A stretch of 64,000 bases of DNA from Agrobacterium vitis. GTDB lineage: Bacteria; Pseudomonadota; Alphaproteobacteria; Rhizobiales; Rhizobiaceae. Shown here in pieces: positions 2,088 through 39,025 of the stretch (position 1 is the stretch's first letter; every line of letters begins with the position of its first letter). Position numbers and translations under genes: made by a program. The notes below the pieces were generated by a model. It saw only the letters and a program-made list of their open reading frames with translations. It did no database searches and was not told the DNA's origin. The stretch spans positions 727,001 to 791,000 of the forward strand of contig NZ_JACXXJ020000003.1 of NCBI RefSeq assembly GCF_014926405.1. Direction: 5' to 3'.

Positions 2088-2109
2088 ACCTGCTACAAAT
2101 TTCGGGCAA

Positions 2110-6962: not shown

Positions 6963-7040
6963 TGTGACTGCACCCGGTTGGCTGTGAGCACCAACCGGGT
7001 CGCCACTGGGCAATTGACCATAACCGGGAAGGACTTTTGA

Positions 7041-8564
7041 ATGGAATGGCTTGAAACACTGCGTCGCAGTTTTCTCGACTGGGACGCGATGGCCGAAGTC
7101 TTGCCTGCCATGATCACGGTCGGCTTGAAGAATACGCTTATCCTCGCCTTCGCCTCCACCGTGATTGGCGTGGTCATTGGCATGGTCCTCGCCATTATGG
7201 GTATTTCGCGCTCGCCGTGGCTGCGCATTCCGGCGCGGCTTTATACCGACATCTTTCGTGGCCTGCCTGCGATTGTCACGATTTTGCTGATCGGTCAGGG
7301 TTTTGCCCGCATTGCTCGCGAAATCTGGGGGCCATCACCCTATCCGCTGGGCATTCTGGCACTGAGCCTGATTGCCGGGGCCTATATTGGCGAAATCTTC
7401 CGCTCCGGTATTCAGAGTGTCGATCGGGGCCAGCTGGAAGCCTGCCGGGCGTTGAGCATGAGCTATGGCCAAGGCATGCGGCTGATTATTGTGCCGCAGG
7501 GCGTGCGGCGGGTATTGCCCGCGCTGGTCAATCAGTTCATCGGCAATGTGAAGGATTCCAGCCTCGTCTATTTTCTCGGTCTCTTGGCATCCGAGCGCGA
7601 AATTTTCCGCGTTGGGCAAGATCAGGCTGTTGTCACGGGCAATCTCTCGCCGCTGTTGCTGGCGGGCATGTTCTATCTTGTCATCACCGTGCCCCTAACC
7701 CATCTGGTCAACACCATCGATGCCCGGCTGCGGCTTGGCAAAAAGCCAGCTGCCGAGGCGATCAGTGGTCTTGCCGAAGTGAGCGAACTGGCGAAGGCTG
7801 TGGATGGTGCGAATGCGCCGACGAAGGAAATCACCTTCACCGGCGGGAGTCTGGATGTGCGTGAACTGACCATGGCCTACGGCACGCTGGATGTGCTGAA
7901 GGGCGTTGATCTCACCGTCAAACCCGGCACCGTCACCTGCATCATTGGCCCCTCCGGCTCTGGCAAATCGACGCTGTTGCGCTGCCTCAACCGCTTGGTT
8001 GAGCCAAAGGGCGGCGATGTTCTGCTGGACGGTGCCAGCATTCTGACAATGAAACCCGAAAAACTGCGCCGCAAGGTTGGCATGGTGTTCCAGCACTTCA
8101 ACCTGTTTCCCGATCATTCGGCGCTCGACAATGTCATGCTGTCGCTGACCAAGATCAAAGGTATGTCACGGCAGGAAGCCGAGCGGATCGCGCTGGCAAG
8201 ATTGCGTGATGTCGGGCTGGAAAGCCGCAAACATCACCGTCCCGGTGGTTTGTCTGGTGGGCAGCAACAGCGGGTGGCCATTGCCCGTGCGCTGGCGATG
8301 GAGCCGGAGGTTATCCTGTTCGATGAAGTCACCTCGGCGCTTGATCCGGAATTGGTGAAAGGCGTGCTGAACCTGATGGCCAATCTGGGTGAGCGCGGCA
8401 TGACCATGGTGGTTGTGACCCACGAAATGGGCTTTGCCCGCCGCGTCGCTGATCAGGTGATTTTCATGGATGAGGGCAAGGTGGTGGAAGCAGGCTCACC
8501 CGAAGCCATTTTTGACCACCCTCAGAGTGCGCGGTTGAAGCACTTTTTGGCGGAGGTTTTGTGA
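7041..8564 (+). CDS. Fused ABC permease and ATPase for amino-acid-type uptake
   Basis: A 507-residue fusion of two normally separate proteins. Residues 1-230 are a HisMQ-type permease with TM helices and the coupling motif [12 protein letters not shown]; the EAA-like loop is intact. A linker of about 40 residues leads into a GlnQ-type ATPase with Walker [10 protein letters not shown], signature [15 protein letters not shown] and Walker [13 protein letters not shown]. The start at 7041 follows a clear GGGAAGGA. A single fused chain dimerises to give a complete importer without a second permease gene. It works with the binding protein at 6135. Such fusions are known in rhizobial amino-acid importers. 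Confidence 0.93.
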
Positions 8565-24354: not shown

Positions 24355-26544
24355 ATGGTGTTTTTGGTCCGCTTCCTGCTCTGGCTGATCTGCGCGGCGG
24401 CGATGCTGGCTCTGACATTTTTGCCCATCGACACCCGGACACAGCTGGTGACAACATTCATCATTCTGATCATCGTTTCGGTGATGAGAATGATGCGGAT
24501 CGAAGGCCGCGGCCGCATTGTTTTTCTGTCGCTCTCGACGGCCATTGTGCTGCGTTATGTCTATTGGCGCACCAGCAGTACCTTGCCGCCGGTCAACCAG
24601 CTTGAAAATTTCATCCCCGGCCTGCTTGTCTATCTGGCCGAGATGTACAGCGTCCTGATGCTGTTTCTCAGCCTGTTCGTGGTGTCCATGCCACTGCCGC
24701 CACGCAAGCCTTTTCGCACGCTTGCCGCTGAAGAACTGCCAATCGTCGACATCTTCGTGCCAAGCTATAACGAAGACGAAGCCTTGCTGGCCAATACGCT
24801 GGCTGCGGCCCGCAATCTCGATTATCCAGCCGACAAATTCACTGTTTGGCTGCTGGACGATGGCTCAACGGAGCAGAAGCGCCAGTCCACCGACCTGCTG
24901 GCGGCAAAATTCGCCGAACAACGTCATCAGGCGCTCCAGGCGCTCTGTAGCCAGCTTGGCGTGCGCTATCTAACGCGCGAGCGCAACGAACATGCAAAGG
25001 CTGGCAATCTCAACAACGGTCTCGATCACTCCAGTGGAGAGCTGGTCGCCGTCTTCGACGCAGATCACGCTCCGGCCCGCAGCTTTCTCAAGGAAACCGT
25101 CGGCTATTTCGGGGAAGACCCGCGTCTTTTCCTGGTCCAGACACCGCATTTCTTCATCAACCCTGATCCGGTTGAGCGGAACCTCAATACATTCAACAAG
25201 ATGCCGAGCGAGAACGAAATGTTCTACGGCATTATCCAGCGCGGCCTCGACAAATGGAACGCGGCCTTTTTCTGCGGATCGGCTGCCGTTCTGCGCCGCG
25301 AAGCCCTGCTTGAAACCAAAGGCTTCAGCGGCCTTTCCATCACCGAGGATTGCGAAACCGCGCTTGAACTGCATTCGCGCGGCTGGAACAGCATTTTTGT
25401 CGATATGCCGCTAATCGCTGGCCTGCAACCGGCCACCTTTGCCAGTTTCATCGGCCAGCGCAGCCGCTGGGCGCAGGGCATGATGCAGATCATGCTGTTC
25501 CGTTTTCCACCACTCAAGCGCGGGCTGACCCTGCCGCAGCGGCTCTGCTACATGTCATCGACGATGTTCTGGCTGTTTCCTTTTCCCCGGGCAATCTTCC
25601 TGATGGCGCCGCTGTTCTACCTGTTTTTCGATCTGCAGATTTTCATGGGCTCGGGTGGTGAGTTCATGGCCTACACCCTGTCCTACATGCTCGTGAACCT
25701 GATGGTTCAGAACTACCTCTATGGTTCTTTCCGCTGGCCATGGATTTCGGAGCTTTACGAATATGTGCAATCGATACATCTGCTGCCGGCTATCCTCTCT
25801 GTGATGTGGGACCCACGGCGACCGACCTTCAAGGTCACCGCCAAGGATGAAAGCGTGACGGAAAGCCGCCTGTCGGAAATCAGCCGGCCGTTTTTCCTGA
25901 TTTTCTTCATCCTGCTGCTTGCCTTTGCAGTGACTGTCTACAGGCTCTACAGCGATCCCTATCGGTTTGACGTGACACTGGTGGTCGGTGGCTGGAACCT
26001 GGTCAATCTGATCATGGCCGGATGCGCACTGGGCGTCGTCTCGGAGCGGGGAGAGCGACAGTCGTCGCGTCGTGTGCAGGTCAGCCGGCGCTGCGAGTTT
26101 TCCGTGGGTGGAAAAACCTATCCGGCAATGATCGATGATGTGTCGGTCAACGGTGCCAGCCTGCAAATTTTTACCCGTGACCGCGAAATCTTCAAGCGGG
26201 ACACTTTGGCCGCCGTGACGTTTCAACCGCATGGTACAAACCAATGGGCCGAACTGCCTGTCAATATCCGTCATTTTCAATTTAATGGTGACATCGTCTC
26301 AATCGGCTGCCGCTATCTCCCGGAAACCGTGCGCCATCATGAATTCATCGCTGATCTGATCTTTGCCAATGCCCAGCAGTGGAGCCTGTTTCAACAGTCG
26401 CGGCGTCGCAATCCTGGCCTTTTAGGAGGAGCCTGGATGTTCCTGCGCCTGTCTCTCACACAGACACTGCGTGGCCTGCATTATCTGCTCCTGCTGCTTT
26501 CTTCGAAAGCCAAAAACGACGCAAAGCAGGAGGGCGAACATTGA
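24355..26544 (+). CDS. bcsA: Cellulose synthase catalytic subunit with c-di-GMP-binding PilZ domain
   Basis: A 729-residue inner-membrane GT2 glycosyltransferase that polymerises UDP-glucose and threads the glucan through its own channel. N-terminal TM helices lie at about 4-100. The GT2 motifs are LLDDGST, the DxD FDADHAP, the catalytic-base SITEDCETA and QRSRWAQG (QxxRW). Four more TM helices precede the PilZ domain, which has RQSSR (RxxxR, about residue 569) and DVSVNG (DxSxxG) for binding c-di-GMP. It is slightly shorter than enterobacterial BcsA. Its end overlaps bcsB. All catalytic and c-di-GMP residues are present, so it should be active. Confidence 0.97.
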   Translation: MVFLVRFLLWLICAAAMLALTFLPIDTRTQLVTTFIILIIVSVMRMMRIEGRGRIVFLSLSTAIVLRYVYWRTSSTLPPVNQLENFIPGLLVYLAEMYSVLMLFLSLFVVSMPLPPRKPFRTLAAEELPIVDIFVPSYNEDEALLANTLAAARNLDYPADKFTVWLLDDGSTEQKRQSTDLLAAKFAEQRHQALQALCSQLGVRYLTRERNEHAKAGNLNNGLDHSSGELVAVFDADHAPARSFLKETVGYFGEDPRLFLVQTPHFFINPDPVERNLNTFNKMPSENEMFYGIIQRGLDKWNAAFFCGSAAVLRREALLETKGFSGLSITEDCETALELHSRGWNSIFVDMPLIAGLQPATFASFIGQRSRWAQGMMQIMLFRFPPLKRGLTLPQRLCYMSSTMFWLFPFPRAIFLMAPLFYLFFDLQIFMGSGGEFMAYTLSYMLVNLMVQNYLYGSFRWPWISELYEYVQSIHLLPAILSVMWDPRRPTFKVTAKDESVTESRLSEISRPFFLIFFILLLAFAVTVYRLYSDPYRFDVTLVVGGWNLVNLIMAGCALGVVSERGERQSSRRVQVSRRCEFSVGGKTYPAMIDDVSVNGASLQIFTRDREIFKRDTLAAVTFQPHGTNQWAELPVNIRHFQFNGDIVSIGCRYLPETVRHHEFIADLIFANAQQWSLFQQSRRRNPGLLGGAWMFLRLSLTQTLRGLHYLLLLLSSKAKNDAKQEGEH

Positions 26545-28895
26545 AAACAGCTTTTGCCCTGATTTTGATGCTTTTGGCCAGCGCTGGGTCAGCACTTGCC
26601 CAGATGGCGCCTTTCGACATGAGCCCCGAAAGCAATACAATGCCGGGCGCGCCGATACCCGGCCTGCCCGCGACCAAGGCACCTGTCCCCGTCCCGACTA
26701 CGCCGATCCCCGGCATTCCCCTGTCCAACCGCCCGGCACAACAGCAAGGCGAGAGCCTGTCACGCCGTTACCTGCTGACAACACCGGTTCTCAAGCTGCA
26801 AGGCGAACTGGCCCGGCAGGCGATGTCGATTTATCTGACACCGGAACAAGCCTCAGCCGATGCAAAGCTGGTGCTGAGCTATAGCAACGCGCTGGTGGTT
26901 GCGCCGGAAGCCTCTAACATTCTTATCACCATCAATGACACGCCGGTTCTAAACCTGCCGATCAGAGGCGGCCAGTCTGCGCAGCAAAATACAATTTCCG
27001 TGCCGCGAGGCGTTCTTGTTCCGGGCTTTAACCGGATCAGTTTTGCCGCAGAGCAACGGCACCGCACCGACTGCACCATCCAATCCACCTATGAATTGTG
27101 GACGGAAGTGGATGCATCAAAAACCTATCTGACCTTTGCGGACCCTGACGCCAACGGCATGAAACGTCTCGACGATGTGCGCGCGCTTGGTGTCGATGAA
27201 AAAGGCCGCAGCCATTTCACCATCGTTTCACCGGATCTCGAACAGCCATCTGCCACCCCCGCTTTGCTCCAGTTGGCCCAAGGCCTGTCACTGCTGAGCG
27301 GCGTGGCCAATGGCTCCTTCAGCTTCACGAAAACCATGCCAGCACGACCGGCGCCTGGGGAACTTGTGGTCGTGGCGGCCACAACATCGCAAATGGCGGG
27401 CCTGATCGGCATAAACAATGCCGTAAACACAGACGCCAGAAAGCTGAACGGCACGATGGCTGGCTTCATGGCGCTTCCGGGCCGGCCAGGAGTGTCGGTC
27501 CTCGCCTTCAGCGGCCCGGATTGGCGCGACATCAAAGCGATTGCCGATAACTTTGTCCAGTTTGCCCAAGACGGCGAGCGGCGGATGTTGAAAACCTCGG
27601 CCTGGCGCGGCGTCGATACACCTATTCTGGACAAGGCCGGGGCGCTGTCCTTTGCCGCGCTCGGTCTTCCCGACCAGGAGTTTTCAGGTCGCCGCTTTTT
27701 CACGGATTTCACGGTGGGCATGCCAGCCGATTTCTATGCCAACCATTATGGGACCGCGACCATATTGCTGGACGCCGCCTATTCGAGCAAGGTCTTGCCG
27801 GGTAGCCAGATCGTGGTATCGGTCAACGGTCATCTGGCGACCACCGTTCCGATCACGTCCAAAGGAGGCGCGGTTCTCCGACACTATCCGATCCGCGTTA
27901 CCCTGCGCCATTTTCATCCGGGCGTGAATGTCATCGGGCTCGAAGCCGTGATGATGACCCAGGAGGACAGCGTCTGCGCACCTGGTGAGACAGCGGACAA
28001 AACGGCGCGGTTTGCCTTGTTCGGCTCTTCGCAATTCGTCATGCCACCGATCGCGCATCTGACCCAGGCCCCCGATCTCGCTGCAACAGCGGGTCTCGGC
28101 TTTCCCTTTGCTGCGGCAAAAACCCCGACAATGGTTGTTTTGGGCCGCAATGACGATGTGACACTGGCCGCCGCCGCAACCGTGCTCGGCAAATTTGCCG
28201 CATCGGCCCGGCAAACCCTTGCACTCGAAATGGCGTCATCGCCCCCACGCTTTTCCGGTCGCAATGCGATTTTCATCGGAGCCGCACCGGACCTTCCACC
28301 CCAGGCATTTACCAATGTGCAGCTACAAACCAAGGGTGCCGGAGATGGCGATCTCAGCACCGACGTAAAGCTCAAATCCTGGCGCGACAAAATTGATTCC
28401 GGCACGGTCATGGAATTTTTTTCCAGCGTCGACACCTGGATGAAAGAAACCTTCGATCTCAATCTGGCGACCGTCAGCCTGTGGCCGAGTGCCGAGGCCG
28501 CCTATACATTGCCCCAGGCATCCAGTGCATTTCTGTCCCAATCCGTCGATGCCGACGGTGCCATCCTGACGACATTCAGCGCCCCTGATCGCGCATTGTT
28601 ACAAACCGGCACGGTCGATATCGCCGATCTTCGCAATTGGACCGCGATTTCGGGCCGCGTCAGCGTTTACGATGCGAGGAAACAGGAGATCGTCGTCAAT
28701 GAGCCGACCAGTGTCAGCCTGTTGTCGATGCAGCCCTTGAGCATCAGCAACATGCGATTGGTCGCGGCAAACTGGCTCTCCGGCAATTTCGTGATCTATG
28801 CGGGCGGGCTCGTCCTGTGCGCCATCCTGCTGGGGCTTGCCACGAATGCGTTGATGGCGCTGCTGGGGCGCGGCCACGGCTCAGACAAGAGTTAA
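26541..28895 (+). CDS. bcsB: Cellulose synthase periplasmic subunit BcsB
   Basis: A 784-residue periplasmic co-polymerase subunit. I place the start at TTG 26541, which overlaps the bcsA stop (TTGA) and is preceded 6 bases earlier by AGGAGGGC. It gives a clean signal peptide (TAFALILMLLASAGSALAQ). Upstream in-frame starts lie inside bcsA. A Pro-rich linker follows, then the carbohydrate-binding and flavodoxin-like repeats of the BcsB family (ILITINDTPVLNLPI, SQIVVSVNGHLATTVPI) and a C-terminal membrane anchor (LSGNFVIYAGGLVLCAILLGLA) that activates BcsA. No bcsZ cellulase follows. Confidence 0.95.
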   Translation: MKTAFALILMLLASAGSALAQMAPFDMSPESNTMPGAPIPGLPATKAPVPVPTTPIPGIPLSNRPAQQQGESLSRRYLLTTPVLKLQGELARQAMSIYLTPEQASADAKLVLSYSNALVVAPEASNILITINDTPVLNLPIRGGQSAQQNTISVPRGVLVPGFNRISFAAEQRHRTDCTIQSTYELWTEVDASKTYLTFADPDANGMKRLDDVRALGVDEKGRSHFTIVSPDLEQPSATPALLQLAQGLSLLSGVANGSFSFTKTMPARPAPGELVVVAATTSQMAGLIGINNAVNTDARKLNGTMAGFMALPGRPGVSVLAFSGPDWRDIKAIADNFVQFAQDGERRMLKTSAWRGVDTPILDKAGALSFAALGLPDQEFSGRRFFTDFTVGMPADFYANHYGTATILLDAAYSSKVLPGSQIVVSVNGHLATTVPITSKGGAVLRHYPIRVTLRHFHPGVNVIGLEAVMMTQEDSVCAPGETADKTARFALFGSSQFVMPPIAHLTQAPDLAATAGLGFPFAAAKTPTMVVLGRNDDVTLAAAATVLGKFAASARQTLALEMASSPPRFSGRNAIFIGAAPDLPPQAFTNVQLQTKGAGDGDLSTDVKLKSWRDKIDSGTVMEFFSSVDTWMKETFDLNLATVSLWPSAEAAYTLPQASSAFLSQSVDADGAILTTFSAPDRALLQTGTVDIADLRNWTAISGRVSVYDARKQEIVVNEPTSVSLLSMQPLSISNMRLVAANWLSGNFVIYAGGLVLCAILLGLATNALMALLGRGHGSDKS

Positions 28896-29106: not shown

Positions 29107-29937
29107 ATGGTTTTGTCTCGCATCGCAAATCCTAAAGCTGCTGTGGTTGTCGGCTGTCTGTCAGGCATGCTGTTTTCTGCCTGTGGCAGTCACGCCGCCG
29201 ACACGAGTGCCGATACGGAGAGCCGCTGGACAGTCACGCTTGGAGGCGCGGTCGAACTGGCGCCCAGCTATCCCGGTTCCAAGCAATATACGTTCGGGGT
29301 CATTCCCTCCTTCGATATCCGTCGGTTCGGAGAGCCCGAGGAAAATTCAGCACCTGATGATAATCTGGATTATACGGTATTCAGTGGGCATGGGTTTGAA
29401 GTGGGGCCGGTCGTTGGCTTTCGTGACAGCCGCTCCTCCAAATCGACCAATCTCGACGGGCTGAAAAACGTCGAATTTGATATCGATGCCGGTGTCTTCG
29501 TCCAATACTGGATTAAGCCGGATGTCTGGCGGGTGCGCTCGGAAATCCGCCAGGCGCTGTCAAATGGCAGTGGATTGGTCGTCGATATCGGCTCGGATTG
29601 GTTTCAGCCGCTTTCGGAAAAATGGCTGCTGTCCGCCGGGCCGAGGGCCACCTTTGGTGACACATCCTATATGAACAAATATTTCGGCGTCTCCGCTGCC
29701 GAGGCCAGCCGGAATGGCCGCATCAATGCTTTCGATGCGAGCGCCGGGATCAAATCCGTGGGCTTTACCGTCTCGGCCACCTATGCGATTTCACCAGATA
29801 TGTCGGTGCAACTCTATAATCGCTTCGAGCGGCTGGTGGGCGATGCCGCCGATTCCCCTGTTACCTCTGAGCTCGGGACCAGAAACCAGAACACCATTGG
29901 AATTGCCTTCAACAAATCCTTCGATATTTCATTTTGA
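29107..29937 (+). CDS. MipA/OmpV-family outer-membrane protein
   Basis: A 276-residue beta-barrel protein of the MipA/OmpV family. After a signal-like segment (AAVVVGCLSGMLFSACGSHAAD) come the family-typical strands WTVTLGGAVELAPSYPGS, FGVIPSFDIR and GPVVGFRDSR. It ends with a C-terminal Phe (FDISF), as expected for BAM-dependent insertion. The sequence FSACGS could be a lipobox, but cleavage after SHAA is more usual for this family. It lies 211 bp after bcsB with no obvious terminator between, and it is convergent (8 bp) with the cluster on the other strand. Function in envelope physiology is unspecified. Confidence 0.85.
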   Translation: MVLSRIANPKAAVVVGCLSGMLFSACGSHAADTSADTESRWTVTLGGAVELAPSYPGSKQYTFGVIPSFDIRRFGEPEENSAPDDNLDYTVFSGHGFEVGPVVGFRDSRSSKSTNLDGLKNVEFDIDAGVFVQYWIKPDVWRVRSEIRQALSNGSGLVVDIGSDWFQPLSEKWLLSAGPRATFGDTSYMNKYFGVSAAEASRNGRINAFDASAGIKSVGFTVSATYAISPDMSVQLYNRFERLVGDAADSPVTSELGTRNQNTIGIAFNKSFDISF

Positions 29938-29945: not shown

Positions 29946-30314
29946 TCAGGTCCCAGACTTTGACGCCGTCGCAATGCACCAGGCGCCAGCCAGAATTGTC
30001 GCCGTGCCGATCAGTGTTAAGAGCGTGACCGGTTCGTCAAACATGAACCAGGCCATCGCCATGATCAGCACATAGCTGACAGCAGACAGGGGAAATGCCT
30101 TGCTGAGCGGCAGATCGGCCAGTACCGACATCCAGACGATAAAACAGACGATTTCCGCGACGACTGCGGCAAGAAACCAGTGCGACAGAAAGACATGTTC
30201 GAAAAACGCCGATCCATGCGCGGTATCGGCCTGATCTGCGCCAAGTTTCAAAAACATCTGCTGGGCCGTGTTGAGTACCGGCACGGCCAGCCATGACAGG
30301 CGAAGCAGTTTCAT
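29946..30314 (-). CDS. Small four-helix SMR/EamA-type membrane protein (second of two in the cluster)
   Basis: A 122-residue protein with four predicted TM helices (about 7-25, 43-66, 72-90, 97-115). The SMR/EamA half-transporter signature is LADLPLSKAFPLSAVSYVL, similar to the ArnE/ArnF lipid-linked aminosugar flippase subunits. Such proteins work as dimers. It is the last gene of the eight-gene operon and overlaps the FemAB-like gene by ATGA. A second protein of the same type is encoded at 33211, so a heterodimeric exporter or flippase for the pathway product is plausible (inference). Confidence 0.85.
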   Translation of the reverse strand: MKLLRLSWLAVPVLNTAQQMFLKLGADQADTAHGSAFFEHVFLSHWFLAAVVAEIVCFIVWMSVLADLPLSKAFPLSAVSYVLIMAMAWFMFDEPVTLLTLIGTATILAGAWCIATASKSGT

Positions 30315-31519
30315 GCCTCGCCCTCACTCAACTGAACTGCGCTCGCTTCATCTGCGGCGAAATAGGGCGCGACTATGCGCAAAAGACGTTGAACGACGGG
30401 ATTGCGGTGGCGGAAATACATTTCATTCGGCGTTAGCCTGCTGCCCAGCCGTACCTTGTTAGTATAATAGGCCTGACCGCTTTGATAGCGCGTCAATCCG
30501 TTCTTCAGGCAATAGCCAATATTCTCGAACCAGCTGAGATAATAGAGATTGTAGGGGCGGCCCGTCTTTTCATCCATGCAGAAAAACTTGTCGATCAGGG
30601 TGTGATCGTTATGAACCATCAGGTTGGCGGCCAGCAGTTCGTCCCCGACAAAATACAGGGTGCAGAAAGATCGACCAGGCATAGTCTTCAGGATGCCTTC
30701 GAAATAGGCCGGTGTTAGCTGTTCGAACTGCCATTCGCTGCGGGTCCGTGTCTCGTTATAAAGCTGCATGATCCGTGGCAGGTGGTCACCGAATTGCGTG
30801 TGGTATTCGACCCTGACCTTTTCGCGCGACCGTAATTTGCGGCGCATGTCCTTGCGCGTCGACGATGACAGCCGGGCGAAATAACTGTCGATATCGTTGA
30901 AATCGATGGCAAGCCAGGCGGTCGGCATGCCGCCCAGTGGCTCATAGCCATGGCGCTTAATAACGCGGTCAATCCCGGCATCCACCGGCTGTGGAATATC
31001 CTTTAGCGCACCCAGCACGCATTTTCGTGTCCTGGCATAATCCTCAAACCCGCTCAACAGCGCCTGAAACAGCATTTCATGACGTTCCGGCCTGACGGAG
31101 GGGTGAAAACCGAGATTGCCGGTCTCCGTGCAAGGCGAGCCCAGGCAGGCGAGCGGCAGGGTCAGAAATCTCGGAAAGATGCGGCGCAGCCTGCCGATCG
31201 CGTCGCGGACGCGGCCTGCCTCAAGCGTCGTGTCCAAGGCATAGCGGGTGATGAAGGCTGGCATCGCCGCCACAAGATAACCGCCCTCATAGACCGTGGC
31301 ATAACACCACTCGAAGCCTGATATCCCGGCGGTTTCCACGGTCAGCAGATAGTCGTAAGCCTCAGGTTCGCCGGGAAAACAATGGTCCCACTCATCACGA
31401 TCAATATCGGCAATGGAGGTTGCAATGCGAGTATCAAAACCGCGCACCACATCAAGCATCACGCGCTTGTGCATGACATCGTCTGGGGTCGGAGATTTCA
31501 CCGCCATGTTTTCGGGCAT
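30311..31519 (-). CDS. FemAB/GNAT-fold acyltransferase-like protein
   Basis: A 402-residue cytoplasmic protein of the GNAT/FemAB-like (peptidoglycan-biosynthesis-like, DUF482/BioF2-like) group. The C-terminal half shows the fold's typical elements: SSSTRKDMRRKLRSREKVRV, an acceptor-site stretch FCTLYFVGDELLAANLMVHN, and YNLYYLSWFENIGYCL. I place the start at ATG 31519, one base after the hydrolase stop; a longer start at 31552 would overlap that gene. Family members transfer aminoacyl or acyl groups to amines. In the cluster it may attach an acyl group to the aminotransferase product (inference). Confidence 0.8.
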   Translation of the reverse strand: MPENMAVKSPTPDDVMHKRVMLDVVRGFDTRIATSIADIDRDEWDHCFPGEPEAYDYLLTVETAGISGFEWCYATVYEGGYLVAAMPAFITRYALDTTLEAGRVRDAIGRLRRIFPRFLTLPLACLGSPCTETGNLGFHPSVRPERHEMLFQALLSGFEDYARTRKCVLGALKDIPQPVDAGIDRVIKRHGYEPLGGMPTAWLAIDFNDIDSYFARLSSSTRKDMRRKLRSREKVRVEYHTQFGDHLPRIMQLYNETRTRSEWQFEQLTPAYFEGILKTMPGRSFCTLYFVGDELLAANLMVHNDHTLIDKFFCMDEKTGRPYNLYYLSWFENIGYCLKNGLTRYQSGQAYYTNKVRLGSRLTPNEMYFRHRNPVVQRLLRIVAPYFAADEASAVQLSEGEA

Positions 31520-31520
31520 G

Positions 31521-32336
31521 TTATGCTCGGTTCGGTACATAATGAGCCTCAAAGAAATCAGCCGTCAGATCTGCGACGTGCCGGTGCTGGCGGTCCATAT
31601 GGATCATATGATAGCTGTCCCGCAGCCAATGCAGTTCGCGCGGCCCGCCAAGATGCGACGAGATATATTGGGCATGGCTTGGACTGCTGACATCGTCCTC
31701 AAGCGAATGAACGATCAGCGTCGGGGTCTGCATCAAAGGCAGCCGGGCTTTCAAAACCCGCCCGAGCTTGTCCATTTCCACCAATCCCTTCCCAGGAAAA
31801 CTCTCCAGCACGCCGTCGCCATTCATGGCGGCAATCTTGTTGCGCAACCGGTCGTCCTTGATGCCGAGCGAGCGGGTTTCGTGAAAGCTAAGCCGGTCCA
31901 GGAACGGAATCTTCGCCAGCCAGCGGATATTGCGGGCCATGAAATTGTAATGGCGGGGAATGTCCCAGCCATCATAATGGAAACAGGGCGAATAGATGGC
32001 CGCCGCACGAAGGGTCAATGGCTGGCGGTCCGCCGCCATCAGCGCCAGTTTTCCACCGGCGCAGATACCAGCGGCAAAGGCCGCATCGACCCGTGAGGCC
32101 AGAACCTGTCCGGCTTCCTCAACGCTCTCAAGCCAATCCTGCCAGCGCGTCTTGCGCAAGGCTGCTTCGTCCGTTCCATGGCCTGCCAGCAGCGGGGCAT
32201 AAACCGAATATCCGCGCCGGTGCAATTGTCGGGCGACCAGCCGCATCTCCGCAGGCGCCCCGGTCAACCCGTGGACAAGGAGGATGCCGCTGCCATTGCT
32301 GCCTTCCTGAAAAAACGAGAGCGCATCGGTGCTCAT
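31521..32336 (-). CDS. Alpha/beta hydrolase with cysteine at the nucleophile position
   Basis: A 271-residue single-domain hydrolase of the carboxylesterase/monoglyceride-lipase type. The oxyanion region is GILLVHGLTGAP. The nucleophile elbow reads GICAGG, so Cys replaces the usual Ser in G-x-S-x-G. The acid is in LEDDVSSP and the histidine in DSYHMIHMD. Cys nucleophiles are known in dienelactone hydrolases, and the change could also favour acyl transfer over hydrolysis. The start overlaps the desaturase stop by ATGA. Substrate is unknown; in context an acyl-amide or ester of the cluster product is possible. Confidence 0.87.
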   Translation of the reverse strand: MSTDALSFFQEGSNGSGILLVHGLTGAPAEMRLVARQLHRRGYSVYAPLLAGHGTDEAALRKTRWQDWLESVEEAGQVLASRVDAAFAAGICAGGKLALMAADRQPLTLRAAAIYSPCFHYDGWDIPRHYNFMARNIRWLAKIPFLDRLSFHETRSLGIKDDRLRNKIAAMNGDGVLESFPGKGLVEMDKLGRVLKARLPLMQTPTLIVHSLEDDVSSPSHAQYISSHLGGPRELHWLRDSYHMIHMDRQHRHVADLTADFFEAHYVPNRA

Positions 32337-33214
32337 CGCACGCCCTCGCCTGGCATGGTCTCTTTGGCCAGGTTCTCCTTGGCAATGAAGCCGAGCGCGT
32401 GGCAGGTGCTGATCACATGCGTACCAGCCTTTTCCTGCTCGTCTTTAATGCGGTCATGCAGCAGCGGCAATTGCGTCCAATGGGTTTTGGGCCGGTAATG
32501 GTGTTCGGCGTGATAACCATTGCCGAACCACAGCCAATTGTAGAAGCTCTTGTAACTGCTGACGCCCCAGGCAATCGGCTCCTCCGGATCGCCGTGCAGA
32601 TGCTCGTAGTAACCATTGAGAGACGAAAGGCAATTGCCGAGATAATAGAACGGCACGAGGAACAACGTCGCCTTCCAGTCATAGGCCAGGGCCGCCAGTG
32701 CGACGACAATGAAGGCGATCAGCTCGATCCGGCCCCACTTTGCTTCAAATGGCCGCCTGGCAGCGATGGCCCGATGGATTTCGCCCAGATCGTCCCGGAA
32801 GAAGCTCAGAAAGGTGTAGGAAAACACATTTTCCGGCTCGCCATTCTTGCCATGCTTGTAGATCGACAGCAGATCGACGGTCTTGCCACTCTCATCCGGA
32901 CGGTCGCTATTGCCGGAATGGTGGCGCATATGGACCCAGTGATAATAGGTCTGAGAAAAGCCAATGGTGATCGATTCCAGCAGGCTGAAGGCATAATTCA
33001 TCCAGCGCGGCTTGAAATAGGGCGTGTGAATGAAGTTATGGGAAATGCTGTTGATGTTCCAGGAAATCGACAGCGCATATAGGCAGGCCAGCACGAAGGA
33101 GAGCCACAACGGCCGACTCTCGAACCCGGCGATCAGATAGATATTGAAGGCCAGATGCAGCAATGCTGCTGCGACAGACATACTATCCCATTTTGAATAG
33201 GCAAAGAGTTTCAT
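32333..33214 (-). CDS. Membrane fatty-acid desaturase/hydroxylase-type protein
   Basis: A 293-residue di-iron membrane enzyme. TM pairs lie near 12-55 and 165-200. The three histidine boxes are complete: HNFIH (HxxxH), HMRHH (HxxHH) and HAEHH (HxxHH). The family inserts double bonds or hydroxyls into acyl chains or other lipophilic substrates. It is short, with no cytochrome b5 domain, so it needs an external electron donor. It overlaps both neighbours by ATGA. In the cluster it likely modifies an acyl or alkyl chain. Confidence 0.92.
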   Translation of the reverse strand: MKLFAYSKWDSMSVAAALLHLAFNIYLIAGFESRPLWLSFVLACLYALSISWNINSISHNFIHTPYFKPRWMNYAFSLLESITIGFSQTYYHWVHMRHHSGNSDRPDESGKTVDLLSIYKHGKNGEPENVFSYTFLSFFRDDLGEIHRAIAARRPFEAKWGRIELIAFIVVALAALAYDWKATLFLVPFYYLGNCLSSLNGYYEHLHGDPEEPIAWGVSSYKSFYNWLWFGNGYHAEHHYRPKTHWTQLPLLHDRIKDEQEKAGTHVISTCHALGFIAKENLAKETMPGEGVR

Positions 33215-33564
33215 AGTCCTGTTGCTCCGACACAGACCACACCGGCGGTCACAAGCGCGACCCCGACGGCATGGCGAAGGTTGATGGATTCCTTGAAGAT
33301 CACCGCACCGGCAATCGTGATGGTGGCATAGCTCATCGCCATGATCGGAAAGGCGATGGACAGCGAAACACTGGCCAGCACCCGGCTCCAGGCCAGGAGT
33401 TCGATGAGCCAGAAACAGATCCCGGCCCAGACGACAGGCCGCAGGACCATATGTCTGACATCCCCCTCACCTGCGCCTTTTTTGAAGCAGATTTCGCGGC
33501 CTGTCTCCGTCAGGATACAGAACAGGATCAGCGCCAGCATCGATAGATCGAGCCCCTGCTTCAT
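33211..33564 (-). CDS. Small four-helix SMR/EamA-type membrane protein (first of two in the cluster)
   Basis: A 117-residue protein starting MKQGLDLSMLALILFCILTE. The in-frame upstream extension lies within the arginase-fold gene and lacks hydrophobic character, so ATG 33564 is chosen; it overlaps that gene's stop (ATGA). Four TM helices and the motif LASVSLSIAFPIMAMSYATITI are seen, equivalent to LSKAFPLSAVSYVL in its partner at 29946. A glutamate (FCILTETG) in TM1 sits where SMR proteins keep their essential acidic residue, whereas the partner lacks it. This fits an asymmetric pair. Confidence 0.85.
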   Translation of the reverse strand: MKQGLDLSMLALILFCILTETGREICFKKGAGEGDVRHMVLRPVVWAGICFWLIELLAWSRVLASVSLSIAFPIMAMSYATITIAGAVIFKESINLRHAVGVALVTAGVVCVGATGL

Positions 33565-34514
33565 CGCATCTGCTCCCCGAAGACATCCAGCAGCGCGAGG
33601 TTTGCGGCGCTGTTGATGGTGCAGATCTGTGGACCGGAACATGTATGGCGGGGTTGATCGATGAGGATCTCGCCCTTTTTCAACATCCGGGTCCAGAGAG
33701 TGCCGCTATAATCGGGACGGGAATAATCCCCCGTCACATCGGCACCGATAATCCGGTAGCGCTCACCGATCGCGCTGATGATCGACAGGGCATAGGGCAT
33801 CTGCATTTGCCCCTGGTCCCAATTGGTCACCGCATCGCCCTGAACCAGAACATCCTTGTCCAGAGTGATGTAGACGCAGTCGGTCTGAATACTGGCCAGC
33901 AACCGGTCGATGAAATTCATCTCGCCGATTTCGGCGATGGTTTGCCAATAGAGGTTACGGGCATGTTGCCGGTAGGATTGCCCGGAACCGTAACTGGCCT
34001 TCACCCGGCTTGGCGGATGCGAATAAGGATAAAGCTCCAGCCGCCCACTGGCGAGCAGGTCGAGATTTGCGCCCTTGCGCTCGGGCGTCTCCAGATCATT
34101 GCTACAGACGCCGATGGTGATGACTTTATCGACCTGCGGATTGGCAAGGGTGCGGTTCACCCAGGAGCCGCAATGCATGCCACCGTCGAAATGCACCCAG
34201 TCTGGATGATTGTCGATATGAATGACGGTCACTCGCTCGCTGCGGCTTTCCAGCGCCTGATCGATCAGCAGTGATGTGACATGGTGAAAATCGCCCGACC
34301 CCATGAAGCAGAGGCGCGGTTCGGCAGATCCCTGCCGTCCCGCCTGGCTGATCTTGCTCCAGAGCGTATCGAGCGCGGCTTGCCGACCCCAGAGACGCAC
34401 CGCCCTGCCGCTTTGCTGTTCGTTGAGTTCATGCGCGCCAGCCATTTTGCAAGAGCGCATGAATTCAGGCTGCAACTCCAGCGCGTCGTCGAGATGAAGA
34501 AGCAGGAGTTGCAC
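33561..34514 (-). CDS. Arginase/deacetylase-fold metallohydrolase, divergent
   Basis: A 317-residue protein with the ureohydrolase metal motifs in modified form. FMGSGDFHH corresponds to GGDHS. VIHIDNHPDW corresponds to DAHxD, with both Asp and the His kept. ITLDKDV corresponds to the SxDxD site. The Mn/Zn site therefore seems intact, but the guanidine-recognition loops are unlike arginase or agmatinase, so it may cleave another C-N bond such as an amidine or amide. It starts 4 bases after the aminotransferase stop and overlaps the next gene by ATGA. Family assignment is good; reaction is unknown. Confidence 0.82.
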   Translation of the reverse strand: MQLLLLHLDDALELQPEFMRSCKMAGAHELNEQQSGRAVRLWGRQAALDTLWSKISQAGRQGSAEPRLCFMGSGDFHHVTSLLIDQALESRSERVTVIHIDNHPDWVHFDGGMHCGSWVNRTLANPQVDKVITIGVCSNDLETPERKGANLDLLASGRLELYPYSHPPSRVKASYGSGQSYRQHARNLYWQTIAEIGEMNFIDRLLASIQTDCVYITLDKDVLVQGDAVTNWDQGQMQMPYALSIISAIGERYRIIGADVTGDYSRPDYSGTLWTRMLKKGEILIDQPRHTCSGPQICTINSAANLALLDVFGEQMR

Positions 34515-34518
34515 GGCT

Positions 34519-35931
34519 CTATCTCCGTGCAGCGCGGGTCAGCAGCTGATCGAGCAGGGTGAGCGCCAGATCGATTTCGCTGTTGCTAATCATCAGGTTG
34601 GGAGCCAGCGTGATGACGTTCTTGTGGTAACCGCCGACATCGAGCACAAGACCATAGGTCTTGCCATCGACAACCAGATCGCCCTTCATGCCTTCGTCGG
34701 ACATCCAGTCGAGCGTTGCCTTATCGGGGATAAACCCATCTTCCTTGCAGATTTCCATCCGCAGGGCGAGGCCGAGACCATCGACATCACCAACGATGGC
34801 ATGACGCTTTTCGAGAACCCTCAATCCATCGAGGAAGCGAGCGCCTTTTTCCATGACGCTGGCACCGAAATCACCCTCGCCGACCATTTTCATGGTTTCG
34901 AGCGCAACGGCTGTGCCCATCGGATTGCTGGCGAAAGTCGAATGGGTCGAACCGGGCGGGAAGATCGTCGGGTTGATCATTTCCTCGCGCGCCCAGATAC
35001 CGGACAGCGGATTGAGACCATTGGTAATGGCCTTGCCGAACACCAGAACATCAGGCGACACGCCGAAATGCTCGATGGACCACAGCTTGCCGGTGCGGTA
35101 GACGCCCATCTGGATTTCATCGACGACCAGCAGGATGCCGTGGTCATCAAGCACTTTCTTCAAACCGGTGAAGAAATTCATCGGCGGAATGACGTAGCCG
35201 CCGGTGCCCTGGATCGGCTCGACATAGAAAGCGGCATATTCGGACTTACCGGCTTTGGGGTCCCAGACACCGTTATATTCGCTTTCGAACAGGCGGGCGA
35301 ATTTCTGGACGCAGACCTCACCATATTCCTCCTTCGACATGCCTTTCGGGCCGCGGAAGTGATAGGGAAACTCGATGAACTGGGCGCGGTCGCTGAAATG
35401 GCCGTAGCGGCGGCGATAGCGATAGCTCGAGGTGATCGCGCTCGCGCCCAGCGTGCGGCCATGATAGCCGCCCTCAAAGGCGAACATCAGGCTTTTGCCA
35501 CCGGTGAAATTGCGCACCAGCTTCAGGGAATCCTCGACAGCCTGAGAGCCGCCGACATTGAAATGGACGCGGCCCTTATGGCCAAATTTCTGTTCCGCAT
35601 CGCGGGCAATCAGCGCGGCCAATTCGACTTTTTCGCGGTGCAGATATTGGGAGGCCACCTGCGGAAGCTGGTCAAGCTGCCGATGGGCCGCATTGTTCAG
35701 CCGTTCGTTGCGATAGCCGAAATTGACGGCTGAGTACCACATTTGCAGGTCGAGAAACGGCGTCTGGCTGGCGTCGTAGACGAAGGAGCCTTCGCAGCCT
35801 TCGAAGAATTTTGGCTTATCCGTATAGTGGACGGTATCACCGTGAGAGCAATAGAGGTTCTCGAGTTGTCTCAGCTCGTCTTCTGAAGGCGAGACGACAG
35901 GTGGTTCGGCAATCTTGAGCGTTGCACGCAT
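34519..35931 (-). CDS. Class III PLP-dependent aminotransferase
   Basis: A 470-residue fold-type I aminotransferase (acetylornithine/4-aminobutyrate/diaminobutyrate group). It shows the cofactor phosphate region HFNVGGSQAVEDSLKL, the YHGRTLGAS loop, and VVDEIQMGVYRTGKLW with the PLP-ring Asp. The Schiff-base lysine is in VLVFGKAITNGLNPLSG. Residues 1-30 form an extra N-terminal arm. It transfers an amino group to or from the end of a substrate chain. It is the second gene of the operon, 13 bases after the HAD gene. The natural substrate cannot be read from sequence. Confidence 0.92.
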   Translation of the reverse strand: MRATLKIAEPPVVSPSEDELRQLENLYCSHGDTVHYTDKPKFFEGCEGSFVYDASQTPFLDLQMWYSAVNFGYRNERLNNAAHRQLDQLPQVASQYLHREKVELAALIARDAEQKFGHKGRVHFNVGGSQAVEDSLKLVRNFTGGKSLMFAFEGGYHGRTLGASAITSSYRYRRRYGHFSDRAQFIEFPYHFRGPKGMSKEEYGEVCVQKFARLFESEYNGVWDPKAGKSEYAAFYVEPIQGTGGYVIPPMNFFTGLKKVLDDHGILLVVDEIQMGVYRTGKLWSIEHFGVSPDVLVFGKAITNGLNPLSGIWAREEMINPTIFPPGSTHSTFASNPMGTAVALETMKMVGEGDFGASVMEKGARFLDGLRVLEKRHAIVGDVDGLGLALRMEICKEDGFIPDKATLDWMSDEGMKGDLVVDGKTYGLVLDVGGYHKNVITLAPNLMISNSEIDLALTLLDQLLTRAARR

Positions 35932-35944
35932 AGTCTTGTTTTCC

Positions 35945-36649
35945 CTAAGCTATTTTTGATGCAGGAACAGTCGTCACAGCAGCACCAGCCCCAATCGCCA
36001 GGGACTTGGTTTTCAGGGTCTTGAGTGCGGCTGTGATATCGGTGAAATCGCGGTAGGCGATGAAGGGGATCCGGTTTTCCTGGCAATGGACCGCCAGCTT
36101 GGATTTGGCAAAGATCAGCTTGGCGGCATGGCTGGAAACGCAGAAATCAGAGCGGCCATCGCCAATGTAGATATGATCCGCATCGCCAGACCGGATGACA
36201 TTGCATTTACAGACACCCGATCCGGTTAGGCAGCCAGTGCGGGCAAAGGGGTGGTCGAGATCGAAGACCGTCGGGTTGCCGCAGGAGGGTTCCAGCATCC
36301 GGTTGGCGATCACCTCGATATCGGTGATGCCGTGATGGCTGAGAACGCGGCGAATGAAATAATCGACGCCATCGCTGACGATGGTCAGGTGGATATGGTT
36401 CTGGATGCAGAAGCGGCGGAATTCTGGAAAGCCTGCGTCGATTTCGACTTCGCCCAGAAACCGGTCGATCTCATGCCGATAGGCCTGAAGCAGACGGATC
36501 TGAGCCCGCATGCATTCAGCGGAATTGATCTCGCCAGCCTCCCATTGTTGTTCGATGTCGGTCCATTCAGGCAGGGCGAACCGCTCCAGGACGAGGTCAG
36601 TGACGTCCTGTTTCGATATCGTGCCGTCAAAATCGCAGAAAGCTTGCAT
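35945..36649 (-). CDS. HAD-IB phosphatase (MtnX/phosphoserine-phosphatase-like)
   Basis: A 234-residue phosphatase. Motif I FCDFDGTISKQDVTD carries the nucleophile and acid Asp pair, motif II is LTIVSDGVDYF, and motif III is YIGDGRSDF. The cap is the small helical C1 type seen in MtnX and SerB, and a C-terminal extension of about 30 residues is Ala-rich. It removes phosphate from a small metabolite; no methionine-salvage neighbours support a true MtnX role. It is the first gene of the eight-gene operon, and its ribosome-binding site lies inside a perfect hairpin (36653-36677). Confidence 0.9.
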   Translation of the reverse strand: MQAFCDFDGTISKQDVTDLVLERFALPEWTDIEQQWEAGEINSAECMRAQIRLLQAYRHEIDRFLGEVEIDAGFPEFRRFCIQNHIHLTIVSDGVDYFIRRVLSHHGITDIEVIANRMLEPSCGNPTVFDLDHPFARTGCLTGSGVCKCNVIRSGDADHIYIGDGRSDFCVSSHAAKLIFAKSKLAVHCQENRIPFIAYRDFTDITAALKTLKTKSLAIGAGAAVTTVPASKIA

Positions 36650-36652: not shown

Positions 36653-36677
36653 GGTTCCTTCAATCTGTGAAGGAACC
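36653..36677 (-). promoter_or_regulatory. Hairpin that sequesters the ribosome-binding site of the eight-gene operon
   Basis: In the transcript GGTTCCTTC pairs perfectly with GAAGGAACC (9 bp, 7-base loop). The second arm contains the ribosome-binding site GAAGGA and ends 3 bases before the HAD ATG. The structure would block initiation unless melted or bound. Confidence 0.75.
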
Positions 36678-36826
36678 CTAGAACCCGGACCTGAAAGCTG
36701 GATTAGACGAAAATGAAGTGAAACTTAAATGTCGATTTTTTGCCAACCAGCCTTGGGGTGTCCTCGTTGACTTAAAAATTATACTTTATAATCATTTATT
36801 TGCATCCTATGACTGCAACCCGCCAA
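36678..36826. other. AT-rich leader and promoter region of the eight-gene operon
   Basis: The region is AT-rich around 36770-36800. On the minus strand TATAAT occurs at 36783-36778, a good -10 element without a clear -35; transcription from there would give a leader of about 120 bases ending in the hairpin. Confidence 0.4.
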
Positions 36827-38209
36827 TCAAGCCGCAGTGAGCGTCCCCGCTGGCACAAGCAGGTCTATGCGCAAGCCATAGCCCCAGTCCGGCACACCCA
36901 GTTCGATATCAACCGAAAGGCGGCCCGCAATTGCCGCAGCAATGGCAAGGCCAAGCCCGGTGCCCTCACGCTCTGTTGTTGGCAACCGGTAGAATTGCTG
37001 AAAAACCTTGTCGCGATGCTGAACGGGAATGCCCGGTCCGCTGTCATTGACTGAAACGCACCAGCAGTCCTCTTTGGACGTAATCACAACCTCGATTGCA
37101 CCGGCATCCGGCGAATATTTGATGGCATTATCAACGATATTGTCGATCATCATTCGCAACAAGCTGCTGTCGGTCGCCACCAGCGCCTCTTCATCTCCAG
37201 AAAGTTCAACCTGCAACCGCCGTTCGTTAAAGACCGGCCCGAAATCCGCCAACACCTTGGCAACCAGATCGAACAGGTTGGTCTGTTGCAGGTTCAAAGG
37301 CTGATGACTGACGCGGGCCAGATTGAGCATCTGCTCAATCAGATGCATCGCCCGCTCATTGCTGGCGGTCAGATCCTTCATCAGCGCCTGACGCTCTTCC
37401 TCCGAATCCGACCGCTCGATCAATTGCAGCAGCAGCTTTATGCCCGCCTGCGGCGTGCGCAATTGATGGGCGGCGAGATCGGCAAAGCGGCGCTCAAGCG
37501 TCAGGGATATGCGCAGCTTTTCCATGAACTGATTGAGCGAGCCGACCAGCGGAATGAGGTCGCGGGGCAGACCATCGGTGGAAATTGCCGAAAGATCGTC
37601 CGGCGTCCGTGACCTTATCTGGCGGACAAGCACCCGGATATGATTGAGGCCGTTATGAATGACGAACCACACAACAATGGCGATGGCCGGAACCAGGATC
37701 ATCAATGGAAAGGACAGATTGAGAATGATATTGGCGACCAACCCGTCGCGCAGCGCCATTTTCTCGGCCACTTCAATCGTGACTTCGGAATTGGGGATCG
37801 GCAGGGAATAGACCCGCCAGGCTTCATTGTTGATCTTGAAATTGGAAAAGCCGCGTTTGAATTCCGGGACGGATTCGGGAAAGGAATTGCTGCTGACCAT
37901 GACCAGGCGGCCATTCTTCCAGGCCCGGAAGGCGTGGGCATCGGCGTAATCATCCGCATCTTCGTTCAGGGACAGCTGGTCGTCCATGTTGAAATCCAGA
38001 TCGGGGATCTGGACAATCGGCTTGTCCGAATTCTTGGCCAGCGGATGATTGAGCAGGACCCAAAGCGTGTTGGCGTCGTTGATCAACTCCGCATCATAGA
38101 TATTTTCAATCTCGCGGTCGGCGCTTCGATACGCAAAGGCGCCGACAAGCGCGATTGTAATGATCAGCGTCGGCAGAATTCTCAGGAACAGTCTTTGACT
38201 GAGTGTCAC
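36827..38209 (-). CDS. Sensor histidine kinase (TctE/PmrB type)
   Basis: A 460-residue inner-membrane kinase. TM1 is near 9-27, followed by a periplasmic domain of about 130 residues, TM2 near 160-185 (NIILNLSFPLMILVPAIAIVVWFVI) and HAMP. The HisKA phospho-acceptor is in LAAHQLRTPQAGIKLLL, with ATPase boxes DNIVDNAIKYS, DSGPGIPVQHRDKVFQQFYR and GTGLGLAIAAAIA. The start is GTG 38209, three bases after the regulator stop. Together with the upstream OmpR-type regulator it forms an operon. TctE relatives sense tricarboxylates, but no tct transporter is here; the ligand is unknown. Confidence 0.93.
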   Translation of the reverse strand: MTLSQRLFLRILPTLIITIALVGAFAYRSADREIENIYDAELINDANTLWVLLNHPLAKNSDKPIVQIPDLDFNMDDQLSLNEDADDYADAHAFRAWKNGRLVMVSSNSFPESVPEFKRGFSNFKINNEAWRVYSLPIPNSEVTIEVAEKMALRDGLVANIILNLSFPLMILVPAIAIVVWFVIHNGLNHIRVLVRQIRSRTPDDLSAISTDGLPRDLIPLVGSLNQFMEKLRISLTLERRFADLAAHQLRTPQAGIKLLLQLIERSDSEEERQALMKDLTASNERAMHLIEQMLNLARVSHQPLNLQQTNLFDLVAKVLADFGPVFNERRLQVELSGDEEALVATDSSLLRMMIDNIVDNAIKYSPDAGAIEVVITSKEDCWCVSVNDSGPGIPVQHRDKVFQQFYRLPTTEREGTGLGLAIAAAIAGRLSVDIELGVPDWGYGLRIDLLVPAGTLTAA

Positions 38210-38212: not shown

Positions 38213-38884
38213 TCACCGCTCGACCATATAGCCGACGCCTCTGATGGATTTGATGAAATCGGCGCCCAATTTTTTGCGCAGACTGTAGATCGTCACTTCT
38301 ATCGTATTGCTCTCCACCATGGCCGAAATATCGTAGAGGGCGTATTCGATATCGCTTTTGGTGACGTAGCGCCCAGCGCGCTCCATCAAAAGCTTGAGCA
38401 GATGAAACTCCTTGCCTGCCACATGCAGGGGCGTGCCGTTCTGGCGGGCGATCATCGCGGAAGGGTCAAGCTCGACATTGCCGCAACGGATCAAGGTCTC
38501 GGTGCGCCCTTCATATCGGCGGGCAAGCGCCCGCACACGCGCCAGAAGCTCGTCAAGATCGAAAGGCTTCACCAGGTAATCGTCGGCCCCTTCATCCAGC
38601 CCCTCGACCCGTGAGCGGATACTGTCAAGCGCCGTCAACAGCAGGACCGGAACCTTGTTACCGCTGGCGCGCAAGGCTCTAACAACCTCGAAACCACTGG
38701 CTTTCGGCAGGTTCACATCCAGAATAACAACAGCATAGTCATTATCCCGAATGGCAAGCAGCCCGGATTCGCCATCCCGCATCAGATCCACGCCATAGGC
38801 ATGTTTCTCAAAGGCCTTCTTCAGGGAAGAGCCCAGAATGACATCATCTTCGACAACCAGAATCCGCAATGCCGATACTCTCAC
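38213..38884 (-). CDS. OmpR-family response regulator (TctD/PmrA type)
   Basis: About 223 residues. The receiver starts LRILVVEDDVILG, with target Asp in YAVVILDVNLP and Lys in YLVKPFD. The winged-helix DNA-binding domain ends ADFIKSIRGVGYMVER. No ATG start exists. GTG 38884, preceded by AGG at 9 bases, is preferred; TTG 38869 directly before RILVVEDD is possible, and a TTG at 38932 gives an unlikely extension. The kinase gene follows at 3 bp. Targets may include the adjacent operons, but no binding-site pair is recognised. Confidence 0.92.
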   Translation of the reverse strand: MRVSALRILVVEDDVILGSSLKKAFEKHAYGVDLMRDGESGLLAIRDNDYAVVILDVNLPKASGFEVVRALRASGNKVPVLLLTALDSIRSRVEGLDEGADDYLVKPFDLDELLARVRALARRYEGRTETLIRCGNVELDPSAMIARQNGTPLHVAGKEFHLLKLLMERAGRYVTKSDIEYALYDISAMVESNTIEVTIYSLRKKLGADFIKSIRGVGYMVER

Positions 38885-39025
38885 ATATGCTTTGCCTAGC
38901 ACAGAAACGTCCAAACGTCCGCGCCAGGCCAATCACGCATTCTACTGCACAGTTTGCGCTGCAAATCGAGTCACATTTGCGCAAGGACCTGGATCAACGC
39001 AGGGGCATCGCCTTTCGTGAGCCTT

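Follow-up and report, generated by a model that had tools for sequence, protein, structure and literature searches.

A conserved operon of Agrobacterium vitis, with a neighboring sensor-regulator pair and mipA gene, as a candidate module for an amine-bearing envelope lipid

An eight-gene operon of Agrobacterium vitis, the two-component system (TCS) upstream of it and a convergent mipA gene may together form a regulated module of the envelope, one that would synthesize an amine-bearing acyl lipid and transport it outward, a reading drawn from sequence comparison to which we give a probability of about one half. The operon lies in a stretch of 64,000 nucleotides (the window; positions 727,001 to 791,000 of contig NZ_JACXXJ020000003.1, assembly GCF_014926405.1) on a 1.59-Mb contig of a 6.4-Mb genome. 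Its genes encode a HAD-type phosphatase (HAD), an aminotransferase (AT), an arginase-fold protein (ARG), two SMR-type half-transporters (SMR1 and SMR2), a desaturase (DES), an alpha/beta hydrolase (ABH) and a FemAB-like transferase (FEM). Comparison supports the following parts of it: the unit is conserved, the kinase, the operon and MipA occur together, the promoter repeat is phased, acyl-chain genes join in relatives, and active sites have changed.

Results

Gene order and conservation

The eight open reading frames (ORFs), all on the minus strand, run from 36649 to 29946 in the order HAD-AT-ARG-SMR1-DES-ABH-FEM-SMR2 and are tightly spaced, with 13 bases between HAD and AT, 4 bases between AT and ARG and ATGA overlaps thereafter, except for the single-base gap ahead of FEM that results when its start is placed at the ATG at 31519 (a longer TTG start was called at 31552). 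The ORFs bear out a preliminary description of the window, which had given the same eight-gene order, coordinates and gaps, and its family assignments for the eight proteins hold in Pfam and NCBIfam. The G+C content is 56.7% in the operon and 57.9% in the window, and the nearest relatives of ARG are those of A. vitis strains (96%).

Relatives were gathered with an ARG profile search of a genome collection; locus counts refer to the best 80 of at least 204 ARG relatives (numbered with an L, most with 20 kb of sequence, and not a random sample), and genes were counted into a set when they lay on the same strand within 7 kb of the ARG gene. The full eight-gene set is present in 49 of the 80 loci, with identical order in 49/49, and a seven-gene set containing all but DES is present in 13, with identical order in 12 (L083 deviates), so that 62 loci hold a seven- or eight-gene set, 61 of them in order. 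The remainder have ARG and FEM only on that strand, with DES divergent (5/80), ARG alone (3/80) or other partial sets (10/80). The recurrence of the full set, on one strand and with unchanged order, at 49 of the best 80 loci leads us to conclude that the operon is not a chance assembly; homologues scattered mostly through unrelated contexts, which the preliminary description had named as an outcome that would speak against it, are not the pattern among these 80 loci.

On a FEM tree (a quick tree under LG+G4, with long-branch warnings) DES presence or absence changes six times, at least five of them on supported branches, and judged by this distribution DES is dispensable to the operon. The fixed stoichiometry that had been proposed does not follow from the tight gene coupling, and the presence of one member changes on the tree, five or six times at the least.

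Among the hosts are Rhizobium, Neorhizobium, Phyllobacterium, Brucella/Ochrobactrum, Pleomorphomonas, Brevundimonas, Asticcacaulis and Rhodanobacteraceae. Occurrence is patchy: at E 1e-40 FEM is found in 11 of 297 genomes from the family and at E 1e-20 in 6 of 385 from the class, while ARG at E 1e-15 is found in 16 of 398 from the phylum; each count includes the genome of the window. A FEM relative is present in 48 of 72,556 plasmid records; an Agrobacterium plasmid carries a complete desaturase-less operon, and the minimal set containing AT, namely AT-FEM-ARG, is found on a Bartonella plasmid. Presence was also compared across 40 related genomes (numbered with a G), where ARG occurs in 7 and AT (E 1e-150) in 8. 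One of them has an AT relative (65%) at G032:C264:10981-12363, though a single-sequence ARG search of that genome gave none.

A sensor-regulator pair and a MipA-family protein

The TCS, an OmpR-type response regulator and a sensor kinase (HK), sits directly upstream of HAD (Table 1). In 55 of the 80 loci the best HK homologue lies no more than 600 bp from HAD, and a regulator homologue occurs somewhere in 60; in other relatives the regulator is of the NtrC type. Copies of HK at 68% or above are present in 5 of the 40 related genomes, all five with AT and ARG, and the other match within the limits used stands at 34%; G005 and G009 carry a diverged desaturase-less operon without this HK. By comparison of gene neighborhoods, the unit includes the upstream TCS, and the operon is probably switched by the neighboring sensor. 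Both proteins score under the equivalog cut-offs of their nearest models, at 203 versus 345 bits (QseB) and 199.8 versus 330 bits (PmrA) for the regulator and at 180.3 versus 475 bits (QseC) and 147.8 versus 314 bits (PmrB) for HK.

A homologue of the MipA protein is found in 46 of the 80 loci. Among the 40 genomes, copies at 75% or above occur in four, all carriers of the desaturase-type operon, with other matches at 47% or below, and MipA-family genes lie beside or in the unit also at L087, L117-L119 and L120. The distribution suggests that the convergent mipA is very likely part of the unit. The extent given in the preliminary description thus stands for the eight genes, but it missed the TCS, the promoter repeat and MipA, as well as a ninth gene in many relatives. 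Downstream of mipA, at 24355-28895, the translations read as a cellulose-synthase-like bcsA/bcsB pair.

Table 1. Operon genes, flanking genes and promoter features, in window coordinates
Feature	Coordinates	Strand	Matches and remarks
OmpR-type response regulator, start codon uncertain	38213..38932	-	PF00072 and PF00486; nearest NCBIfam QseB, PmrA
Sensor HK with 2CSK_N domain	36827..38209	-	PF08521, PF00512, PF02518; nearest NCBIfam QseC, CztS/CopS, PmrB
Four tandem YTTMAK-like half-sites, 11-bp period	36691..36729	-	HK-HAD gap, 42-80 bp before first gene; read in sequence
Perfect 10-bp hairpin in leader	36653..36677	-	Between -10-like element and first ATG
HAD, HAD-IB phosphatase, MtnX-like/PHOSPHO-like	35945..36649	-	PF12710, PF06888, PDB 2fea
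AT, class III PLP aminotransferase	34519..35931	-	PF00202, 242 bits, above cut-off of 30.5
ARG, arginase/agmatinase-superfamily hydrolase	33561..34514	-	PF00491; GTG start
SMR1, SMR-type half-transporter, ArnE-like	33211..33564	-	PF03151/PF00892, both below cut-off; ArnE best NCBIfam match
DES, membrane fatty-acid-desaturase family, accessory	32333..33214	-	PF00487, 111.8 bits
ABH, alpha/beta hydrolase	31521..32336	-	PF12146; GICAGG nucleophile elbow
FEM, FemAB-like tandem-GNAT transferase	30311..31519	-	PF04339/PF13480
SMR2, SMR-type half-transporter, ArnF-like	29946..30314	-	PF00892, 33.8 bits versus 28.2
MipA/OmpV-family outer-membrane protein, convergent with operon	29107..29937	+	PF06629, 162.6 bits

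A phased repeat before the first gene

The gap between HK and HAD contains a four-fold repeat whose half-sites read TTTAAG, CTTCAT, TCTAAT and TTTCAG in 11-bp steps from 36729 to 36691. The PmrA consensus YTTAAK-N5-YTTAAK, tried first, reached 11/12 in just 3 of 56 sequences (the window and two A. vitis relatives) and was rejected; the best sites of that trial supplied a TTTCAK-type pair motif. This two-half-site motif scores at least 10/12 in 49 of 50 Rhizobium-type loci (not L026) and in 9 of 33 others, with 6% of shuffled controls reaching 10 and 0.4% reaching 11, a count that is circular for the 50 source loci because the motif was derived from them. Half-sites 3 and 4 lie outside the motif definition, so the test of their phasing is not circular: in the 58 motif-selected loci half-site 3 is in phase (T and A) in 56 and half-sites 3 and 4 together in 53, and the 11 other offsets tested gave 0-4 of 58. 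The five failures are L058 (short contig), L069 (fourth half-site only), L086, L117 and L118, and the pair-motif matches at L117 and L118 look like chance because those loci have NtrC-type systems.

At L062, L063, L065, L070 and L132 the phased repeat passes and an OmpR-type pair is present; at L060, L061, L064, L071 and L084 an HK of this kind was not found beside HAD and the repeat score is 8. A search of the window for three half-sites, with some tolerance, returned two overlapping matches at the repeat and a weaker one at 19521-19547. On this pattern the repeat is a likely candidate for the binding site of the cognate regulator.

The leader hairpin of the window is identical in sequence in L009 and L010, where it folds at -15.8 kcal/mol; hairpins of other sequence occur in some relatives, and the R. 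tropici group is without a comparable one. When the leaders of 55 relatives were folded (the start codon being misplaced in at least L086), a strong hairpin appeared in some lineages only, and we rejected it as a conserved RNA element. An Rfam scan of the window gave no match.

Acyl-chain and export genes in relatives

Of the 58 loci that have DES, 34 carry a cyclopropane synthase (CFA) gene directly 3' of SMR2 and in the same orientation, as against 0 of the 17 that lack DES; the 5 of 80 loci without FEM or ARG are left out of this count. The CFA-SMR2 junction is a 4-base overlap in 22, a 1-base overlap in 8 and an ORF start called further upstream in 4; L049 and L053 have a CFA ORF whose far-upstream start falls beyond the distance limit of the count, and in L132 CFA lies inside the operon, between DES and ABH. 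The acyl-chain genes KS and ACP are found beside the core in L073, L078, L082, L085, L092 (where the KS is FabF-like), L121 and L122; in L087 they lie upstream. Genes for DevA/DevC-like exporters, in most cases accompanied by TolC, stand beside the core in L060, L071, L084, L085, L094, L121, L122, L128 and L129, among others. DegT aminotransferases adjoin the SMR pair in L066, L089, L092 and others, and a GSAM-like enzyme takes a place beside HAD, with no AT, in L082, L085, L090 and L131 (9 kb off in L073). It is because of these accessory genes that we read the product in terms of an acyl chain, an amine, flipping and export.

L128-L130 also contain large ABC-like ORFs, which were dropped from consideration once the one tested (L129) proved UvrA-like. 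A Nostoc plasmid (L093, 2680-16927) carries genes for a desaturase, a class III aminotransferase, a FEM-like protein (24%), an NO synthase oxygenase, a formyltransferase and DevBCA. Upstream of the operon at L117, positions 1731-7457 are taken up by an ORF of very great length that bears a ToxA_N domain.

Active-site features of the operon proteins

HAD exceeds the cut-off of the TIGR01489 subfamily (101.6 versus 81.55 bits) and falls short of MtnX equivalog status (96.3 versus 303.2 and 109.5 versus 292 bits). In class III aminotransferases of the GABA/ornithine type a Glu/Arg pair forms the switch that handles glutamate and 2-oxoglutarate; AT, a protein of 470 residues with PF00202 as its sole domain, lacks this feature, and in alignments to solved relatives the pair is replaced by T243 and T441, both invariant (16/16). 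An AT query of a large protein database gave 5950 matches, and among the 120 listed the names were uninformative.

The binuclear metal site of ARG is complete, with the six ligands characteristic of the arginase superfamily kept, which places the protein within that superfamily. It differs from the arginases, agmatinases and guanidinases in scoring far under the agmatinase equivalog cut-off and in having motifs of its own, TNW.QG (invariant) and HCGSW (near-invariant). A solitary ARG paralogue (L008/L059; 53%) has Gly in place of the third metal Asp; at L059 (3334-5835) it adjoins an adenylosuccinate-synthetase-family gene, and its genome carries an AT-ARG copy as well. In Rhodomicrobium (L067, 9491-10957) a solitary ARG relative (47%) lies near an IF-2B-family gene, beside HypF-like and hydrogenase genes.

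HAD, AT and ARG belong to families that are all known in amine metabolism, which would suit a common salvage route for amines or polyamines whose neighboring genes are unrelated to it. We consider such a route very improbable: the core is conserved together with acyl-chain and flippase-type genes, none of the three proteins reaches an equivalog cut-off among those listed (25 of 69 families for AT), and a degradative dehydrogenase was not noticed among the flanking genes, which are partly annotated.

DES combines a PF00487 match with the three His boxes of a desaturase (HNFIH, HMRHH and HAEHH, read from the translation), and a sequence comparison with the PDB gave no meaningful match; RtxC, the desaturase of rhizobitoxine synthesis, is of the same PF00487 family. 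The ABH nucleophile is Cys in the window and is naturally exchanged within the family: of the 23 proteins aligned, 14 have Cys and 9 have Ser, the Ser form occurring in some distant members. SMR1 scores 46 bits against an ArnE equivalog cut-off of 92, and SMR2 53.9 bits against 99 for ArnF.

Pfam's FemAB family proper is not matched by FEM, which finds only PF04339 and PF13480 at E 0.001. Its predicted model has a tandem GNAT fold resembling FemX and the aminoacyl-tRNA-dependent peptide synthases Sba18/Sbb17, from which FEM differs in being 12-16% identical and in its placement in PF04339/PF13480.

The Sba18/Sbb17 likeness of the model, to enzymes of a streptothricin-type pathway, would suit an SMR-exported product that is a FemX-made peptide antibiotic or a diffusible, rhizobitoxine-like antimetabolite of amino-acid type, built by a serinol phosphate route and a small-molecule desaturase. 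The genes are patchy and occur also on plasmids, and HAD, AT and a PF00487 desaturase recall the rhizobitoxine genes rtxACDEFG, where RtxA leads from DHAP to serinol and RtxC desaturates (PMC3222319). A possible aminotransferase step on a phosphorylated triose is shared, along with the desaturase. RtxA is a fused aminotransferase/sulfhydrylase that prefers glutamate as donor (PMC3222319), whereas the operon has a separate HAD and an AT that has lost the glutamate switch and is without a sulfhydrylase domain; rhizobitoxine biosynthesis was rejected on the missing RtxA-type fusion. A small polar product, moreover, needs no CFA, KS or ACP, yet these join the operon in relatives, and we regard a diffusible antimetabolite or peptide antibiotic as unlikely.

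Discussion

In the regulated envelope-lipid module that we favor, HK, probably a sensor of envelope stress, would act through the regulator at the four-fold repeat to turn the operon on. AT and HAD would convert a phosphorylated precursor, with a keto or aldehyde group, into a small amino-alcohol, and FEM would form an amide on that amine, with acyl-ACP/CoA or aminoacyl-tRNA as the donor. ARG might hydrolyze a guanidine, amidine or amide group and so expose a further amine, ABH might transfer or trim an acyl group, and DES (in relatives CFA or KS/ACP) would tailor the chain. The ArnE/ArnF-like SMR pair would flip the lipid, a DevBCA-TolC-type pump would carry it onward in relatives, and MipA would act at the outer membrane. 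Beyond the comparisons themselves we infer what the signal, the substrates and the product are, in which order the steps run, and that the module has a role against cationic stress.

The preliminary description had pictured an amine that is made, acylated, modified in its chain and then flipped or exported. The CFA, KS/ACP and DevBCA-TolC-type genes and an SMR pair nearest to ArnE/ArnF agree with this, but the acylation step is less firm, as FEM may use aminoacyl-tRNA and not an acyl donor. Its observation is confirmed, and its interpretation overall is partly supported.

Several points weigh against the lipid module. The window operon itself is without a CFA, KS or ACP gene, and a DevC homologue was not found in its genome with one query at E 1e-10 and no positive control. 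A CFA-like gene lies upstream, on the opposite strand, at three Brevundimonas loci that lack DES, and a pairwise test of DES and CFA on the FEM tree met six and four changes, too few independent events (sign test p = 1). At L066, L068 and L087 an OmpR-type pair is present, yet the repeat scores only 9/12. The FEM fold, by model comparison, suits aminoacyl-tRNA, acetyl-CoA and myristoyl-CoA enzymes equally. The suggested link to cationic peptides comes from the families that the TCS and MipA resemble, together with earlier literature. Finally, CFA synthases normally act on bulk phospholipid, and the chain genes could therefore remodel the membrane in parallel.

This last point leads to a membrane-remodeling stress regulon, in which DES and CFA would alter bulk phospholipid while the other proteins add an amino acid to headgroups or lipid A, in the manner of ArnBCADTEF, AlmEFG or MprF. 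ArnBCADTEF under PmrAB offers a PmrAB/QseBC-like TCS, paired ArnE/ArnF-like SMR halves and a likely amine-bearing envelope lipid; it differs in that the SMR halves here score at about half the equivalog cut-offs and that the class III AT, ARG, FEM and DES have no Arn counterpart. Members of the ArnA, ArnC, ArnD and ArnT families are absent from the eight operon proteins, and on this and the ArnE/ArnF scores we rejected an L-Ara4N operon. In CarRS-OmpV-AlmEFG of Vibrio cholerae a TCS adjoins an OmpV/MipA protein and the envelope lipid receives an aminoacyl-type modification. The arrangement of TCS beside a MipA/OmpV protein and the logic of envelope lipid modification are shared, but no AlmE- or AlmF-like protein is among the eight, which have FEM, AT and ARG instead. 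The eight proteins include no member of a glycosyltransferase, adenylation or phosphoethanolamine-transferase family, AT and HAD are hard to place, and the window operon has no DegT enzyme; remodeling of this kind seems to us doubtful.

The DevBCA-TolC exporter of heterocyst glycolipids resembles the envelope-lipid module in that DevA/DevC-like genes adjoin the operon in several relatives; it differs in that exporter genes are not in the window operon, nor did the single query find them in its genome. Ornithine-lipid synthesis (OlsBA) was rejected, as the OlsB and OlsA acyltransferase families are unmatched among the eight proteins, and so was a siderophore or NRPS pathway, as no such domain is among them. 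The preliminary description knew of no named pathway with this combination of genes; none matched here, and a thin search of the literature found no characterized pathway that fits, which weakly suggests that the operon belongs to no known pathway.

It is possible, and we put this forward tentatively, that the product represents an undescribed class of bacterial lipid: an amino-alcohol (amino)acylated by a FemX-type enzyme, unmasked by ARG, whose chain is desaturated or cyclopropanated and whose synthesis on demand would fall to a self-contained sensor-regulator-operon-MipA module scattered through alpha- and gammaproteobacteria. None of the operon enzymes matched a characterized enzyme in this analysis. 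Tying the ARG, FEM and switch-less AT groups to one pathway would let each constrain the substrates of the others. The envelopes of rhizobia and related bacteria face plant antimicrobial peptides and soil stresses; if the proposal is true, a new lipid class and a putative protective route would be common to many Rhizobium species, Phyllobacterium, Brevundimonas and gammaproteobacteria.

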